Shown here: piece after piece, positions 56,545 through 64,000 of the stretch
How the letters are laid out: the number at the start of each line of letters is the position of its first letter
Position numbering within the stretch: position 1 is the stretch's first letter
Source of the DNA: Candidatus Gordonibacter avicola
GTDB taxonomy: Bacteria; Actinomycetota; Coriobacteriia; Coriobacteriales; Eggerthellaceae
DNA length: 64,000 nucleotides
NCBI GenBank assembly: GCA_019113915.1
Contig: DXGM01000039.1
Location: 1 to 64,000, forward strand
Reading direction: 5' to 3'
Translations under genes and position numbers: made by a program
Notes under the pieces: generated by a model
Seen by the model: the letters and a program-made list of their open reading frames with translations, nothing else
Told to the model about the DNA's origin: nothing
Database searches by the model: none

Positions 56545-56574
56545 TTTACATGAAACGCGAGCAATGGCTATACT
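56545..56574 (+). promoter_or_regulatory. Promoter of the DGR target gene
   Basis: TTTACA (56545-56550), 18-base spacer, TATACT (56569-56574). The predicted start near 56581 gives a leader of about 58 bases before ATG 56639. GAGGAAGAGAAG before the ATG is the ribosome site. Confidence 0.7.
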
Positions 56575-56638: not shown

Positions 56639-59600
56639 ATGCGGCAAAGCAGCTATCGGAATAAGAGCCAGAGCGTCGCTGCGGCGGGGCTGTCGGTTCT
56701 TCTTGCAGCAAGCCTAACGCTGGCTTCTGTAGGGTCGGCCTTTGCGGTCGACAACGAAAACCTCGCGGGGGGGGGGCTCTAAGCCTTTAACCTCCGCAGG
56801 TCAAGACGCAGAATCGGAAAAAAATGCGTCGGGTGTTACCCAAATTCTCCCGTCCGGTCAAACGGTCGGTTCCCTCCCTCTCTCGCAGGGAGAATCCAAA
56901 GCTTCTATCGGTTCCCTCCACTATGATGGCCTCGTGTATGAGGTGTGCTCCGACGGCGTTTCGGTTGCACTTGTTGGATGGTATGGAACCGCTCCCACGG
57001 GCACCATCACGGTTCCGGCCCAGGTCATAAGTGGGGCCGACTCTTACACCGTCACCTCCGTAAAAAGTTTCGCAACGGAAGGCTCACCCGCTGACCTTTC
57101 TGCTGAATCTCTTGCGCTTCCCGATACTATCAGTGATATCGCAGACGGGGCTTTCAACAGCTGCCCGTCGCTTGCGCGCATCACCATCAATTCCCAAAAC
57201 GAGAACCTCATGTCGTTTGACGGCATGGTGTTCACGAAAGATATGGCTCAACTCCTGTCCATTCCCGAGGGCAAGGAGGGCGTTGCCCACATCCCCGACC
57301 CAACATCTCTTGTCCCGGCTTCCGCATTTTCCCGGTGTGTGAGGCTTTCCCGCATTGAGGTTGGGGAGGGCAACGCCAATTTCACCTCGTGGAACGGTGT
57401 TCTCTATAGCAAAGATAAGAAAACGCTGATTGCGTATCCACCAGGCGTGGGTACCTCAGCGGTCATCCCGGCCGATGTTGAGGCGCTTGGCCCCGATGCG
57501 TTTGCTGGGTGCGAAGCACTTGCCTCAATTGCCGCACTTGGTTTTGTGCGCGACATTGACAGCAAGGCTTTTCCGGAAGAGGTAAAGGCTTCTGCTGTCG
57601 TGGCGCTTCCCTCGGGTGAGGACTACGACGCCCGCAAGGCCGTGTGGGAGAAGGCCGGTTTTGGGAACTTCTCCGCGTCGGCCAAGCCCGGCGATACGGT
57701 GCACCCTGGCGCAGATTCTTCTGACGGACAGAACAAAGACGATGAAAAGGCGGCAAGCGGGTTCGCTTACACGCTGCTTGATGATTACACCCTCTCCGTT
57801 TCCTGGGAGGGTTCCGAAGACCCTGCTGCTGAACTGGAAATTCCCGCAACAGCTGAGGTGAACGGAGCCTCCTATCGCGTGTCTTCGGTTGCTGCGAATG
57901 GGTTTTCCAACCGCGCCTCAATCACGAGCGTGAAACTTCCTGACGGTGTGACCTCCATCGATGAGGGCGCGTTTGCGGGGTGCACTTCGCTTGCAAGCGT
58001 CACATTCCCCGAGGGGTTGCGCGACATTGGCGCACGAGCCTTTGAAGCCACAGCGCTCACCGACGTGTGGCTTCCCGCAAGTGTGACCTCGGTTGACTCG
58101 CGCGCTTTTGCGGCCTGCGGGTCGCTCACGCGTGTTGTAGCTCTGGCCACCCCGGCGGTGGCGGAAGATGTGCTTGCCGGCTGCACCGGCGTATCGGTGT
58201 ACTGCCCCTATAACGCAGAAGGTTCTTATCCCTGGATTGTGGGCCTTCCGTCGGCGGGCAATCACCTTTTGCCTTACGGGGTGGAACTGGCGGCTGACCC
58301 ACTATCCCTTGAGACGGGCCAGGAAGCAGATCTGCTCGAAGGTGGCCTTTTGGAAGTCCCCGAGCCCGTGGAAACTTCCTACTCCTACGCCGCCTCTCCC
58401 TTATCAGTTGATGCTGGCACCGTTTCGGCAAAAAAGGCGGGCGCAACCGACGTGACCGCCGTGCTCTCATTGGATGGCGAAGAACTCGCCCGCTCAAGCC
58501 GGACGGTGGAAGTGGCTGCCGGCCCTGACGACGATGAGGATCTCTCCGGTTCAGACATCCCCATGATAAACAAGACGGAGTCGCTCATCCCCGGAATCTA
58601 CCTTGCCGAAGCTCGCGCCTCGGCTGTCAACGTGACGGCCCCTATCGCGGTTACGTTCGGGGGTGCGGGCTACGACGTGTCGAAAGCGCAGTCAAGCCTG
58701 ACTGCTTCCGCAACGTTCCAGAACAATACTGACACTTCCGTTACCATGACGAAGATCGATTGTAACAATCAAGGTGCCGCGACCTTGCTGGAGGCGACGT
58801 CGGGAACGCTGGATTCGCAGAAGCTGTTCAGCCTGTATCCAGGAAGCGACACCGCCAAGGCGGTCAGTTTCGGCTACGGCACTGGCGTGAACAGCGCTAC
58901 TCCAGCGTCCGGTGCGTTCGATATCGCGGCGAGCGATATGCTCGACTGCACATTCCGCCTGAACCTCAGCAGCGCGAAGGTCAAGGCGTCAGCCGCGGAC
59001 GGCGGTGCGACGGTACAGTCGCTCGCGAACGTGTCCTATACGTTCGAGGCGAACGAATCGTTCTACCTCCTCGATAAGGCGTCAGGTACGAAGTACGACC
59101 TGACCACCGTGAAGGCCCATGCAGCCGATATCTCATCGAAGGGAACGGGCTCGTCGTACTACTCGAAGTACAACGCCTACATCGCCGACGACAGCAAGTA
59201 CGAATGCTGGACGAAGTGGGGTGGCGTCCTTTATGAGGTGCGTATCATTGGCATTTATCATGATGAAAAGACTTCCGGGGGCAAGGCAGGCTTGACGTTC
59301 CAGTTCAAGAACCTGCTGAATACGACGTATCGCATGAATTCCACGAACACGAATACGGGCGGTTGGGGAGCGAGCGAGCTTCGGGCACGGATGAACCCCG
59401 GCACGGACTCGGTTGCCAATGGCACCGACGACAACGCCATCTGGAACCAAGTGCCGAGTGATTTGCAGAACGCCATCGCTCCAGTCAAAAAATATTATGG
59501 TCCAACGTATAGTTCAACTGCTTCAACGGTCAGCACGTCCAACGACAGCCTCTTCCTCGCCAGCTATCGTGAGCATTCGAACACGATCTACAGCGGTGGG

Positions 59601-59861
59601 AACTACGCAGGTAAAGGGTGGATATCGGCAGAAGGGTCTCAATACGAGTATTGGCAGGGCAAAGTGCCCAATAACTACGCTGCCAATGCGAGTTTGGTGA
59701 AGGGTCTCCAGGCGACTCCGTCGACGGCTGTCAGTTGGTGGGAGCGTTCTGTGAGTCCGAACGACGACACGATTTTCCTTCGTGTGAACACGAACGGCGA
59801 CCCGACCGACCACATCGACGCGAGCAATGCCTATGGCGTGTGCCCCTGCTTCTGCCTCTAA
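56639..59861 (+). CDS. DGR target: secreted BspA-LRR / C-type-lectin-like (DUF6273) protein, out of frame at a G10 tract
   Basis: ATG 56639 opens a Sec signal peptide (MRQSSYRNKSQSVAAAGLSV..., cleavage near SAFA/VDN), but this frame stops at 56780-56782, after a G10 tract (56767-56776). The rest of the protein (over 1,020 residues) continues one frame over, to TAA at 59861. One G fewer would join both into one protein of about 1,070 residues. The body has two BspA-like leucine-rich blocks (LPDTISDIADGAFNSCPSL; LPDGVTSIDEGAFAGCTSL), an Ig-like part, and a C-terminal C-type-lectin-like DUF6273 domain (GWGASELRARMN, IWNQVPSDLQNAI). That domain ends in the variable repeat (WWERSVSPNDDTIFLRV...ASNAYGVCPCFCL). 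No LPXTG or lipobox, so it is secreted or held non-covalently. It can be a phase-off copy, a true frameshift, or a sequencing error. Confidence 0.85.
56767..56776 (+). repeat. G10 tract, candidate phase-variation switch
   Basis: Ten G exactly at the join of signal peptide and mature protein. G10 leads to GGGL-stop; G9 (or G12) reads GGGSKPLTSAGQDAE and continues to 59861. Such tracts change length by slipped-strand mispairing. Confidence 0.75.
59711..59853 (+). repeat. DGR variable repeat (VR)
   Basis: 143 bases at the 3' end of the target gene, aligned without gaps to the TR 2,810 bases downstream (62521-62663). They differ at 59711, 59734, 59755, 59763, 59773, 59781, 59782, 59808, 59811, 59815, 59817 and 59849. 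At each of these the TR has A. Nine Asn (AAY) codons of the TR have become Ser, Ser, Asp, Ile, Arg, Asp, His, Ile and Asp. The shared GC-rich 3' end (CTATGGCGTGTGCCCCTG) is the likely initiation-of-mutagenic-homing site. Confidence 0.97.
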
Positions 59862-60002: not shown

Positions 60003-61751
60003 ATGCCGACAAGGAAGAGAGAACCGAAAATCCGCGTGCTCGTCCGCGTTGTGATGGCGTGCATGGTTGCAGCCGTGCTGGTGGTGCCGGTTGGCCTTGT
60101 GTCGGCTTTCGCCGACACGTCGCTCGGAATCCGCATCGTCGATTCGACGAAGACTCCAGGGGCGGGCGACGGCTCTACCGTGCTCGGCATTCGCGTGACG
60201 GCTCCCACGTATACGATCACATGGAAAGCGAACGGCGGAAACTGGTCCGGTTCGGCCGCCGACAAGACCACGTCTGTCGTTTACGGGGCTGCCACGTCCG
60301 CGCCCGCGAATCCCGTGCGCACCGGCTACACGTTCAAAGGCTGGTCGACAACGGCTGGCGGCTCCGCAACGACGCTGCCCTCCGCAACGACCGCCGCCGC
60401 AACGTGGTATGCGGTATGGGCGGCTGACTCCTACAGCATCACCTACGACCTGCAGGGGGGCACCGCCACGGGAAACAACCCCACCTCCTACACCGTGGAA
60501 ACGGCTAACTTCACCCTGTCGAACCCCACGCGTGACGGTTACACGTTCGCCGGTTGGACGGGCTCGAACGGTACGACGCCCCAGACCACCGTCACCGTGC
60601 CCAAGAACTCCACAGGGGTCAGGTCGTACAAGGCGAACTGGACGGCCATTTCCTACAGCATCACCTACGACCTGCAGGGGGGCACCGCTACCGGCAACAA
60701 TCCCACCTCCTACACCGTGGAAACAGCCAGCTTCACCCTGTCGAACCCCACGCGCGACGGCTACACGTTCGCCGGTTGGACAGGCGCGAACGGTACGACG
60801 CCCCAGACCACCGTCACCGTGCCCAAGAACTCCACGGGGGTCAGGTCGTACAAGGCAAACTGGACGGCCAACTCCTACACCGTCACGTTGGACCGCGGCG
60901 CGGGTACGGGCGGCTCGACGACAGCAAACGCGACGTACGACTCTGCCTTGCCCGCCATCCAGACGCCTTCGAGGGCGGGCTACTCCTTCATGGGCTACTA
61001 CGACGCCGTGGATGGCGGCACGCAGTACTACACCTCGTCCGGTGCGAGCGCCGCGAAATGGAACAAGACCTCAAACGCCACGCTGTACGCGCGCTGGCAG
61101 GCGAACAAGTACGTGGTGTCGTTCGACGCCAACGGCGGGTCGGGCGGCCAGACCGCCTCGGTGGACGCCACTTACGATGCCGCCATGCCGGCAATCTCCG
61201 CGACGCCTCCCGAGCGGCCGGGCTACACGTTCGCCGGTTGGTACGACGCGAAGACGGGCGGCAACCAGTACTACACCGCGGCCGGTGGTAGCGCCGCGAG
61301 CTGGAACAAGACCGAAGCCGCAACGCTCTATGCGCAGTGGACGTTGCAGGTGGTTTGCAGCGTGCCCTCGGCCGCGCTCGTCACGGTGGACGCCGCGGGC
61401 AACGTGTCCGGACAGAACCAGACGTTCTCGTCCTCCACAGTGGAGGATATCAAGGTGACGGCGGTGAAAAGCGGGAGTCTCGACGGGGCGTCCTCAGTGT
61501 TTGCGGATGAGGCTACCAGGACAGGCGTGCGGGTGACGCTTACTCCGCCGGTAGGGGCGGGGACGGCGGTGGAGGTTCCGCTTGTTACGACAGGCAACGG
61601 CGTGGTGACCGATTTCACTATTGGTAGCCAGGGCACGCTCGTGGTGGCATTCGGTTTGAAGCTTCCCGACGGCGCCCGATTAACGTACGAGCCCGACGTG
61701 TCGCGCGATATCGCCAGCCTCACCTATGTGGTGGCCGCTGCCAGGCCTTAG
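60003..61751 (+). CDS. Secreted protein with InlB B-repeats, inside the DGR cassette
   Basis: 582 residues. An N-terminal Sec signal (about 10-38: VVMACMVAAVLVVPVGLVSAFA) is followed by five Listeria-Bacteroides/InlB B-type repeats (motif GYTFAGWTG, GYSFMGYYDA, YTFAGWYDAKTGGNQYY). Two of these, encoded by 60432-60653 and 60654-60875, are nearly identical 74-residue units. The C-terminal domain (about 460-582) is beta-rich and unassigned; there is no LPXTG, lipobox or membrane anchor. Such repeats occur in adhesins. It carries no VR copy. It starts 141 bases after the target stop and 210 bases before avd, and may be the target's binding or surface partner (inference). AAAGGA lies rather far (about 16 bases) from the ATG. 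Confidence 0.88.
   Translation: MPTRKREPKIRVLVRVVMACMVAAVLVVPVGLVSAFADTSLGIRIVDSTKTPGAGDGSTVLGIRVTAPTYTITWKANGGNWSGSAADKTTSVVYGAATSAPANPVRTGYTFKGWSTTAGGSATTLPSATTAAATWYAVWAADSYSITYDLQGGTATGNNPTSYTVETANFTLSNPTRDGYTFAGWTGSNGTTPQTTVTVPKNSTGVRSYKANWTAISYSITYDLQGGTATGNNPTSYTVETASFTLSNPTRDGYTFAGWTGANGTTPQTTVTVPKNSTGVRSYKANWTANSYTVTLDRGAGTGGSTTANATYDSALPAIQTPSRAGYSFMGYYDAVDGGTQYYTSSGASAAKWNKTSNATLYARWQANKYVVSFDANGGSGGQTASVDATYDAAMPAISATPPERPGYTFAGWYDAKTGGNQYYTAAGGSAASWNKTEAATLYAQWTLQVVCSVPSAALVTVDAAGNVSGQNQTFSSSTVEDIKVTAVKSGSLDGASSVFADEATRTGVRVTLTPPVGAGTAVEVPLVTTGNGVVTDFTIGSQGTLVVAFGLKLPDGARLTYEPDVSRDIASLTYVVAAARP
60432..60875 (+). repeat. Two tandem 222-bp repeats
   Basis: Units 60432-60653 and 60654-60875 differ at only a handful of bases (for example GGGAAACAACCCC against CGGCAACAATCCC). 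They lie in frame within the InlB-repeat gene, so recombination could change the repeat number without breaking the frame. Confidence 0.85.
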
Positions 61752-61961: not shown

Positions 61962-62483
61962 ATGAGCGTACCCAAGTACAAACGGGACACCGCGCCCGCC
62001 GAGTTTGTGAGAACCGCCGCCCAGCTTGAGGCTTTTACGGGGAAGATGTGTGCTCGCCTGCCCAAACGATGGGCCTTTACGCGTACCCGTTACATCACCG
62101 ATTGTGCCAATGATATTCTCAATCATGCGGTACGGGCGAATGCCATTTGGGTCACCACTCCAGAAGAAGTGGCTCAGCGCATGGCGCATCTGATGGAAGC
62201 TCATGCCGCCTGCTACACGCTACTGCGCAAAATTGACATAATCGAAGAGGAAATGCCGGTGCGTATAGTGGATAACGTGAACCCTGATGGCACGATAGTA
62301 AAAAGGGAAAAGCCCTGCCTGAGCGCCGGACTACTTCGCGAGTGGACGGTTTTGGCGACCAAAGAGATAAAGCTTATTAAAGGAGTTATTAACTCCGATC
62401 GCAAGCGCTTTTCGACGAAGCGCCATCCCCTTGCGCAAAAGAAAGGCACTGCGTATAGTAGAAAATGCTCACGAAGCGTATAA
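61962..62483 (+). CDS. avd: Avd-like accessory variability determinant of the DGR
   Basis: 173 residues, basic, predicted almost wholly helical with blocks such as TRYITDCANDILNHAVRANAIW, VAQRMAHLMEAHAACYTLLRKIDIIEEEM and SAGLLREWTVLATKEIKLIKGVINSD. These are typical of the four-helix-bundle Avd/bAvd family that binds the DGR reverse transcriptase and TR RNA. It is longer than BPP-1 Avd, mainly from a basic C-terminal tail (SDRKRFSTKRHPLAQKKG). Its place directly before TR and rt is the usual one. ATG 61962 is used; the frame is open upstream but covers the palindrome. The 3' end contains a likely promoter for the TR RNA. Confidence 0.88.
   Translation: MSVPKYKRDTAPAEFVRTAAQLEAFTGKMCARLPKRWAFTRTRYITDCANDILNHAVRANAIWVTTPEEVAQRMAHLMEAHAACYTLLRKIDIIEEEMPVRIVDNVNPDGTIVKREKPCLSAGLLREWTVLATKEIKLIKGVINSDRKRFSTKRHPLAQKKGTAYSRKCSRSV
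62431..62459 (+). promoter_or_regulatory. Candidate promoter for TR RNA and reverse transcriptase
   Basis: TTGCGC (62431-62436), 17-base spacer, TATAGT (62454-62459), inside the 3' end of avd. The predicted start near 62466 is about 55 bases before the TR. Confidence 0.45.
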
Positions 62484-62520: not shown

Positions 62521-62663
62521 AGCGACTCCGTCGACGGCTGTCAATTGGTGGGAGCGTTCTGTGAATCCGAACAACGACACGAATTTCCTTAATGTGAACA
62601 CGAACGGCGACCCGACCAACAACAACAACGCGAGCAATGCCTATGGCGTGTGCCCCTGATTCT
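62521..62663 (+). repeat. DGR template repeat (TR)
   Basis: Non-coding donor of the VR. It contains 38 A among 143 bases; 12 of these differ in the VR, while none of the 105 other bases do. It is rich in AAY codons in the VR frame, including four adjacent Asn codons in CCAACAACAACAACGCG. In that frame it ends in TGA at 62657-62659, where the VR has TGC. After 62663 similarity stops. It starts 37 bases after avd and ends 282 bases before the reverse transcriptase. Confidence 0.97.
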
Positions 62664-62945: not shown

Positions 62946-64000
62946 ATGAATGCTGCTCAGCGCAAACGGCGCCGGGAACGCCGTGAAGCACGGCGCCTGC
63001 TCAAAGCGCGCTTGGACTTGCAGAGCTGCCTCGACTTCGACCACATGAGCGATCCGGCTGTTCTTTCCACCTCGGCGCTCGCTTGCGAAAAAGACGTGCG
63101 GTGGAAGCGAAGCGTGCAAACGTTCATGCTAACGCGCATGAAAAACTGCATCGAATTGTCGGATGAGCTGCGCAGTGGTCGGTATCACAAACGGCCCGCC
63201 AATCATTTTGTGTTGCACGAACGCGGACATGCGCGTTGGATATCGGCGGTGCACTTTCGCGACCGCGTGGTGCAAAAAGCGTACTGTGACCAGTTCCTTA
63301 TCCCAGTGCTTCATCGCGCGGTTGTCTACGACAACACTGCCTCGCAGGTGGGCAAGGGGACCGATTTCGCTCGCGACCGCTTTGCCCTGCATATGGAACA
63401 GGCGCTGCGTCATTTTGGGCCGAAAGCATGGCTGGTCAGCTACGACTTCAAAAGCTATTTCGCCTCCATTGACCCTGGTCGTGCAATGGAAATGATTGCC
63501 TCGGCCACCGCGCCGCTCGTTGCCTGCCAACGTGACCGCGACAATGCCACCAAAATGCTGGAACTGGGTCGTACGTTCATTTGCGAAGAAGAGGGCTTGG
63601 GTCTGGGGAATCAAACAAGTCAGGTGGTGGCCATCGCGTATGCGAGTCCTATCGACCATGCCGTGCGGGAAGTGTGTAGGTGCGGGCTGTCGGGGCGCTA
63701 CATGGATGACAGCTACGCCTTTTGCCGAACGAAGGATGATGCCTATGCGGTGCTTGCCGTGGCGCAAGAGCACGCGCGGCGCTTGGGGTTGGTGCTGCAT
63801 CCTCGAAAGACCCAGGTGGCTCCAGCGGCGCGGCGCCACGTTTATTTGAAAACGGTGTTCTGCCCGCAGCCTGATGGGTCCATTCGCCGTGACATTGCAC
63901 GTGACACCATCAGGCGTTATAAGCGTCACTACAAGGCACTTGTGGGTTTGGTAGCCGCAGGACGCATCCCGGCCGAGGTGCTTGCCGTGAGCGAAGGCTC
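62946..64000 (+). CDS. DGR-type reverse transcriptase (runs off the window)
   Basis: At least 351 residues; no stop before the window end. It copies TR RNA into adenine-mutated cDNA that replaces the VR. Visible RT motifs: HARWISAVHFRDRVVQKAY (early finger blocks), SYDFKSYFASID (motif A, catalytic Asp near 167), GLGLGNQTSQVVA (motif B; the SQ in place of the retroviral SP and the GNxxSQ form are DGR hallmarks), and GRYMDDSYAF (motif C, YMDD, near 252), then HPRKTQ. The Arg-rich N-terminus (QRKRRRERREARR) is probably RNA-binding. There is no maturase or endonuclease domain so far. ATG 62946 is used; a second in-frame possibility was not seen. Confidence 0.96.
   Translation, partial: MNAAQRKRRRERREARRLLKARLDLQSCLDFDHMSDPAVLSTSALACEKDVRWKRSVQTFMLTRMKNCIELSDELRSGRYHKRPANHFVLHERGHARWISAVHFRDRVVQKAYCDQFLIPVLHRAVVYDNTASQVGKGTDFARDRFALHMEQALRHFGPKAWLVSYDFKSYFASIDPGRAMEMIASATAPLVACQRDRDNATKMLELGRTFICEEEGLGLGNQTSQVVAIAYASPIDHAVREVCRCGLSGRYMDDSYAFCRTKDDAYAVLAVAQEHARRLGLVLHPRKTQVAPAARRHVYLKTVFCPQPDGSIRRDIARDTIRRYKRHYKALVGLVAAGRIPAEVLAVSEG

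Follow-up and report, generated by a model that had tools for sequence, protein, structure and literature searches.

A probable poly-G contingency tract at the signal peptide of a diversity-generating retroelement target in Candidatus Gordonibacter avicola

Introduction

In the draft genome of Candidatus Gordonibacter avicola, an uninterrupted run of ten G residues stands between a signal-peptide frame and a long body frame, the 3' end of which carries the variable repeat (VR) of a diversity-generating retroelement (DGR). This arrangement raises the question of whether slipped-strand phase variation and DGR mutagenesis act on the same protein, so that one device decides whether the protein is displayed and the other which variant. 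Such an on/off switch on top of diversification was proposed from the sequence of this locus alone, with an assembly error in the homopolymer as the main alternative. Here, we describe a computational analysis of the locus, of its paralogous family in the same genome, and of related genomes.

Results

Organization of the locus

The window, that is, the whole stretch of 64,000 nucleotides that was analysed, belongs to contig 28 of a 49-contig draft genome of 3.08 Mb. Its features are as follows.

56545..56574, + strand: promoter-like site TTTACA-18-TATACT, sigma-70-like, 10/12, consensus match only
56639..56782, + strand: signal-peptide frame, a 36-residue signal followed by VDNENLA-GGG-L-stop
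56767..56776, + strand: G10 tract, proposed slipped-strand switch, out of frame in the sequenced state
56778..59861, + strand: body frame of the DGR target, BspA-type LRR_5 with C-terminal DUF6273
57888..58139, + strand: best stretch of LRR_5 (BspA-type), E 4.9e-31
59331..59858, + strand: DUF6273 with a C-type-lectin-like fold predicted by structure model and fold comparison, E 1.5e-10
59712..59853, + strand: VR, 131/142 identical to the template repeat (TR), each of the 11 mismatches being at a TR adenine
60003..61751, + strand: protein located between target and DGR core, containing Listeria-Bacteroides repeats behind a signal-like N-terminus
61962..62483, + strand: Avd-like accessory gene, 5' of the TR, PHROG 3206 'Avd protein of DGR', E 2.1e-5 (weak)
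62522..62663, + strand: TR, forming a pair with the VR
62946..64000, continuing to 64109 past the window end, + strand: DGR-type reverse transcriptase (RT), 3' of the TR, RVT_1 E 5.6e-12

The sequence GTGAGGAAGAG lies before the ATG at 56639. The promoter evidence is weak taken alone, with three sigma-70-like sites found against 1.3 +/- 1.2 in shuffled sequence. The G10 tract at 56767-56776 does lie, as originally predicted, behind a promoter-like site, a ribosome site and a signal peptide, in a frame that ends at 56782, and removal of a single G does join signal and body. When tract lengths of 7 to 14 were tested by frame counting, the two frames were connected at lengths 9 and 12 only; every remaining length led to a stop after 46-51 codons. 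On the 3' side of the tract the body frame is open for 1027 codons. The tract thus has the features of a contingency locus in that it is a homopolymer far above chance, lies within a frame, and is followed by early stops in the other frames. A second G10 run in the window, at 859-868, is flanked on neither side by a long open frame.

The body frame encodes a DGR target

The assignment of this gene as a DGR target, also part of the original prediction, is upheld by the VR/TR pair and by the RT and Avd-like genes close by. Over 142 bp, the VR (59712-59853) and the TR (62522-62663) differ at 11 positions, all of them TR adenines (six A>G, three A>C and two A>T changes), in a TR of which 37 of the 142 bases are A (Fisher p = 1e-7 for the restriction of mismatches to A). 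The locus meets the further features of DGR membership, namely an RT near the TR, an Avd-like protein, although this match is weak, and a C-type-lectin fold at the VR. Both the RT and the Avd-like frames are intact, and YMDD and GxxxSQ motifs, which we take to be RT signatures, are visible in the RT translation. The activity of the DGR, mutagenic homing, is inferred. A search of 100 relatives, including the source genome, identified 12 RT loci in 11 genomes, a single one of them in the source genome, and a pattern search of the latter found one exact TR signature, the sole further site having one mismatch. As a separate observation, poly-G runs of 11, 8, 10 and 8 are present at the 3' end of apparent DGR reverse transcriptases (L189 and L190, both Collinsella, L088 at 10436, and L091 at 9498, respectively); these may be a switch or an RNA element and are unexplained.

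A structure model was built for the C-terminal domain only, from an alignment of 15 paralogues (pLDDT 83.6, pTM 0.85). The best fold match was the IgA peptidase 9qa6 (Z 14.7, 178 aligned, rmsd 2.9), and the DGR protein TvpA (2y3c) was matched at Z 5.9 (135 aligned, rmsd 4.5), with C-type lectins at Z 4-5.5 and the DGR protein TaqVP also at lower Z. Matches with Z below 8 would be weak if alone. As modelled, the C-terminal domain has a C-type-lectin-like fold.

G-tracts occupy two fixed sites in a paralogous family

The source genome contains 44 G-runs of 10 or more in stretches read with their context (39 when counted as preceded by a non-G), against an expectation for 3.08 Mb of 0.36, extrapolated from window runs of 3-6, to 4.1 under a first-order Markov model. 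Twenty-seven of the 44 belong to a single paralogous family, in which they keep to two fixed sites: 16 follow (S)ENL, or a close variant of this motif, at the junction, and the other 11 precede FTDS/FTEY about 100 codons further on. At these tracts the other frames run into stops within a few codons. Six tracts at contig edges (three junction, three internal) were excluded from the phase counts. The 13 remaining junction tracts have lengths of 10 (one tract), 11 (four), 12 (four) and 13 (four), with 4/13 in frame, and the eight internal tracts have lengths of 11 (five) and 12 (three), with 5/8 in frame; one third would be expected in frame if lengths were random. All of the other 12 resolved junction tracts are longer than the G10 of the DGR target. 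At another of the 13 (C2:26782), G13 stands where its relatives read C + G12, so that its in-frame length is a different one. Both tracts are in frame in one gene and both are out of frame in three.

Bodies behind out-of-frame tracts are open for 924-2911 codons, and short segments, of 102-139 codons, terminate at a second tract or at a contig end. A VCPCFCL-type (DGR-type) C-terminus is common to 15 genes, 12 of which carry at least one tract. Two others are truncated by contig ends short of the tract sites, and the last, at C44:63442, possesses a signal-like N-terminus and a body without a tract. Among the 15, only the DGR target at 56778..59861 has a close match to the TR. Further tract genes share the N-terminal half and have longer bodies, which in those scanned consist of LRR and Listeria-Bacteroides repeats without DUF6273. 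Among the 15 members, the 14 most similar pairs give dN/dS values of 0.19-0.25. The DGR target is in none of these pairs; its synonymous sites are near saturation, and it is too distant from the other members for a dN/dS of its own. Taken with the open out-of-frame bodies, the dN/dS values of the family indicate that such genes are under selection. Tracts at the same codons throughout a family, far above chance and followed by open bodies, argue for a family of contingency loci rather than a single sequencing error. The proposed on/off switch over DGR diversification therefore stands as an inference from tract, frames and family; what did not hold is that it would be peculiar to the DGR target, which is instead one of a genome-wide set of surface proteins inferred to be phase variable.

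Long G-runs also occur at other kinds of genes in this genome. Runs of G10-G14 are present at or in the genes for a GHKL histidine kinase, two LuxR-type regulators and a GGDEF/EAL protein (C49:35998, L071; C45:75229, L066; the end of C24, L074; and C49:90068, L072), and these regulators may be phase variable too. In two S-layer-homology proteins (C23:14209, L052, and C49:33934, L071) a G12 stands beside the signal peptide or within it; the tract is out of frame in one and in frame in the other.

Tracts in related genomes

At least one G-run of 10 or more is present in 45 of 60 related genomes, and the junction DNA pattern was detected in 5 of 138 family genomes. Three genes of a genome from another genus (G020) carry the internal-site tract, as G10 in frame and as G9 and G11 out of frame, and a second genome outside the genus (G174) encodes a signal peptide followed by AENL-M-GGG, with G10 in frame and 2147 codons. 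Several lengths and both phases thus occur among equivalent loci, the comparison being between paralogues and with other genera, not between strains at one locus. Most of 30 G-run loci in same-genus genomes could not be assigned to a clear switch; a long G-run is not always a switch. In G177, from another genus, three loci (L165, L166 and L167) have G10, G13 and G10 before the hydrophobic part of the signal peptide, all out of frame with the nearby ATG when read by hand; the one that was scanned encodes choline-binding repeats. The closest homologue outside the source genome, that of G031 (53% over residues 19-585), is free of runs of 9 or more.

A second strain was sought among viral contigs (eight chance matches in one search, none in another) and was not found there; among genome contigs, 25 records yielded only Gordonibacter sp. 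Marseille-P2775 as a near relative, and the first scan confirmed none. Ten of the 11 other RT loci were examined, and nine of these have a TR/VR pair. None of the nine showed seven or more consecutive G or C in the VR-holding frame or in the 60 bases before it (in at least one of them, L087, the longest frame is probably not the real gene), which indicates that DGRs of this order do not in general combine with such a tract.

Has the DGR rewritten other family members?

Comparison of the TR with the loci examined gave a single close VR, that of the DGR target (92%); the seven other alignments, to paralogous ends, were weaker (60-76%). Six of the seven were compared with the TR base by base, and the seventh, of only 45 bases, was not included. 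Departures from the TR at A versus non-A sites were 19/37 v 22/102, 16/38 v 28/105 and 17/36 v 24/100 in the first three (Fisher p = 0.0009, 0.06 and 0.009) and 19/33 v 15/86, 13/33 v 31/86 and 25/37 v 31/102 in the other three (3e-5, 0.45 and 9e-5). Across the 15 C-termini, the 21 A-bearing TR codon columns have a mean entropy of 2.54 bits, compared with 0.66 bits for the 17 others (p 4e-7). We did not take this A-site excess as proof that the paralogous ends are targets of the source-genome DGR, since gene-to-gene variation in DUF6273 ends is likewise seen in genomes that gave no RT match, and since a TR would be selected for A at tolerant sites. DUF6273-type ends of the same kind are present on contig C33 of G020 (L171), a genome in which no relative of the source-genome RT was found.

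Alternative explanations for the tract

Several readings of the G10 tract do without a heritable switch. G-runs of such length can slip at the level of RNA or the ribosome, and slippage by RNA polymerase or ribosomes could give constant low expression, with the tract setting the level; this would account for the retention of out-of-frame bodies. We regard it as unlikely on the ground that paralogue tracts differ by single bases and occupy all three phases, evidence that DNA slippage happens over evolutionary time.

The assembly error named at the outset, with a true tract in frame and a gene that is always on, needs only a one-base mistake in a 49-contig draft of which at least 9 of 98 contig ends lie no more than 4 bases from a G/C run of 12 or more. 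Contigs C3, C10, C13, C17, C24, C27, C28, C29 and C45 end at G/C runs of 12-14. Contig breaks at long G/C runs show that the assembly was troubled by the tracts, and single lengths are possibly off by one. An error in one homopolymer nevertheless fails to account for family tracts at the same two places, in several lengths and both phases: 9/13 junction and 3/8 internal tracts would have to be wrongly out of frame, and the runs are far above chance at fixed places of one family. Even with a wrong length, the locus would still resemble a contingency tract, caught in the on state. We consider this explanation improbable.

More improbable still is a permanent frameshift, with the target surviving only as a pseudogene and the DGR as a relic. 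Decay does occur in the family, where a CT-rich stretch of the paralogue C29:24862 holds another frame change; against such a fate for the DGR target are its 1027 open codons past the tract, a VR differing from the TR at A sites only, intact RT and Avd-like frames, and a family dN/dS of about 0.2. In that paralogue (L061, C29:24862-27680) the change lies about 70 codons past the internal tract and may be decay or a dinucleotide repeat. Finally, although the in-frame state gives three or four glycines, a mere glycine linker coded by GGG can be set aside, for GGG accounts for only 16 of the 92 glycine codons of the body (GGA 10, GGC 40, GGT 26) and yet the tracts are unbroken G in every gene, and tract-free homologues exist (the C44 paralogue and that of G031), the latter indicating that the fold does not need the glycines.

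Discussion

The tract, the frames, the VR/TR pattern, the family-wide placement in both phases and the intact bodies are observed directly. They make it very likely, in our judgement, that the gene encodes a secreted LRR protein whose lectin-like face is rewritten by a DGR and whose translation is gated by a poly-G contingency tract, although switching itself has not been seen. That tract length changes in living populations, and that translation tracks phase, are inferred; without length polymorphism at one locus between strains, and without reads or expression data, the contingency locus is an inference and not demonstrated switching. In the mechanism that we propose, replication slippage at the tract would bring signal peptide and body into a common frame or separate them again, the sequenced length of 10 being off and 9 or 12 being on. 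The DGR would supply new binding faces to the target at 56778..59861, and, with most members of the dispersed family gated by one or two tracts, a cell would display a shifting subset of them. We know of no requirement for translation of the target in retrohoming; this, together with the distance of about 3 kb between tract and VR, means that both devices can act independently.

Each component has precedents, the cited sources having been available to us only in part. The DGRs of Treponema denticola have core and remote target genes (PMC4891356) and resemble the present system in being chromosomal, with a lectin-like target and dispersed related target genes, TvpA being among our fold matches; in the source genome, by contrast, only one gene has a close TR match. 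The available text of that paper does not contain the terms phase variation, homopolymer or frameshift. DUF6273 is a DGR target with a C-type-lectin fold in gut phages (PMC10743442, PMC11792537), and there too the VR lies in DUF6273; those are phage proteins, however, and the portions available say nothing of an LRR body, a signal-peptide switch or a tract. Bacteroides DGRs acting on pilus tips, as cited in the accessible part of PMC12632263, likewise have a surface protein of a gut commensal as target. The poly-G contingency loci of Neisseria and Campylobacter, as far as the available portions describe them (PMC3786947, PMC8355987), share with those described here a poly-G tract in a reading frame, reversible frame change, surface functions and many loci per genome. 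What sets the present tract apart is its position where the signal peptide meets the body, and many paralogues carry a second one about 100 codons further along. To our knowledge, no retroelement acts on the same gene at the Neisseria and Campylobacter loci, and no tract is known in the Bacteroides pilus-tip DGR gene.

In the passages available from DGR papers (PMC8778435, PMC10053308, PMC12135933, PMC12632263, PMC10743442, PMC11792537, PMC4891356), phase variation, where the term is used, refers to host changes or, loosely, to the DGR itself, and not to a tract in a DGR target; a word search of the available text of PMC8144416 gave no match. Among the matches listed in our literature searches, from which subscription papers were mostly absent, none describes both mechanisms in one protein, and among those listed for homopolymer phase variation in Eggerthellaceae there was none. 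The combination is new; both mechanisms, DUF6273 DGR targets and dispersed DGR targets are already known. Our findings point to a large poly-G phasome in the Eggerthellaceae.

A further possibility, which we put forward only tentatively and think rather doubtful, is a two-layer display: as retrohoming acts at the level of DNA and is not known to depend on translation, off-phase cells would gather unseen VR variants until a one-base slip revealed a new face. At least 15 lectin-ended proteins, most of them tract-gated, would form the repertoire, more than one of which would at times have been rewritten by the single DGR, with its present TR or with earlier versions of it. The hiding of new VR variants in the off phase is an idea and not a result. 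In the gating that we infer for the DGR target, the contingency tract would decide if the protein is shown and the DGR which version. With both devices in one gene, hypermutation hidden in off phases becomes a testable proposition, including its benefit to a gut commensal facing phages or antibodies.
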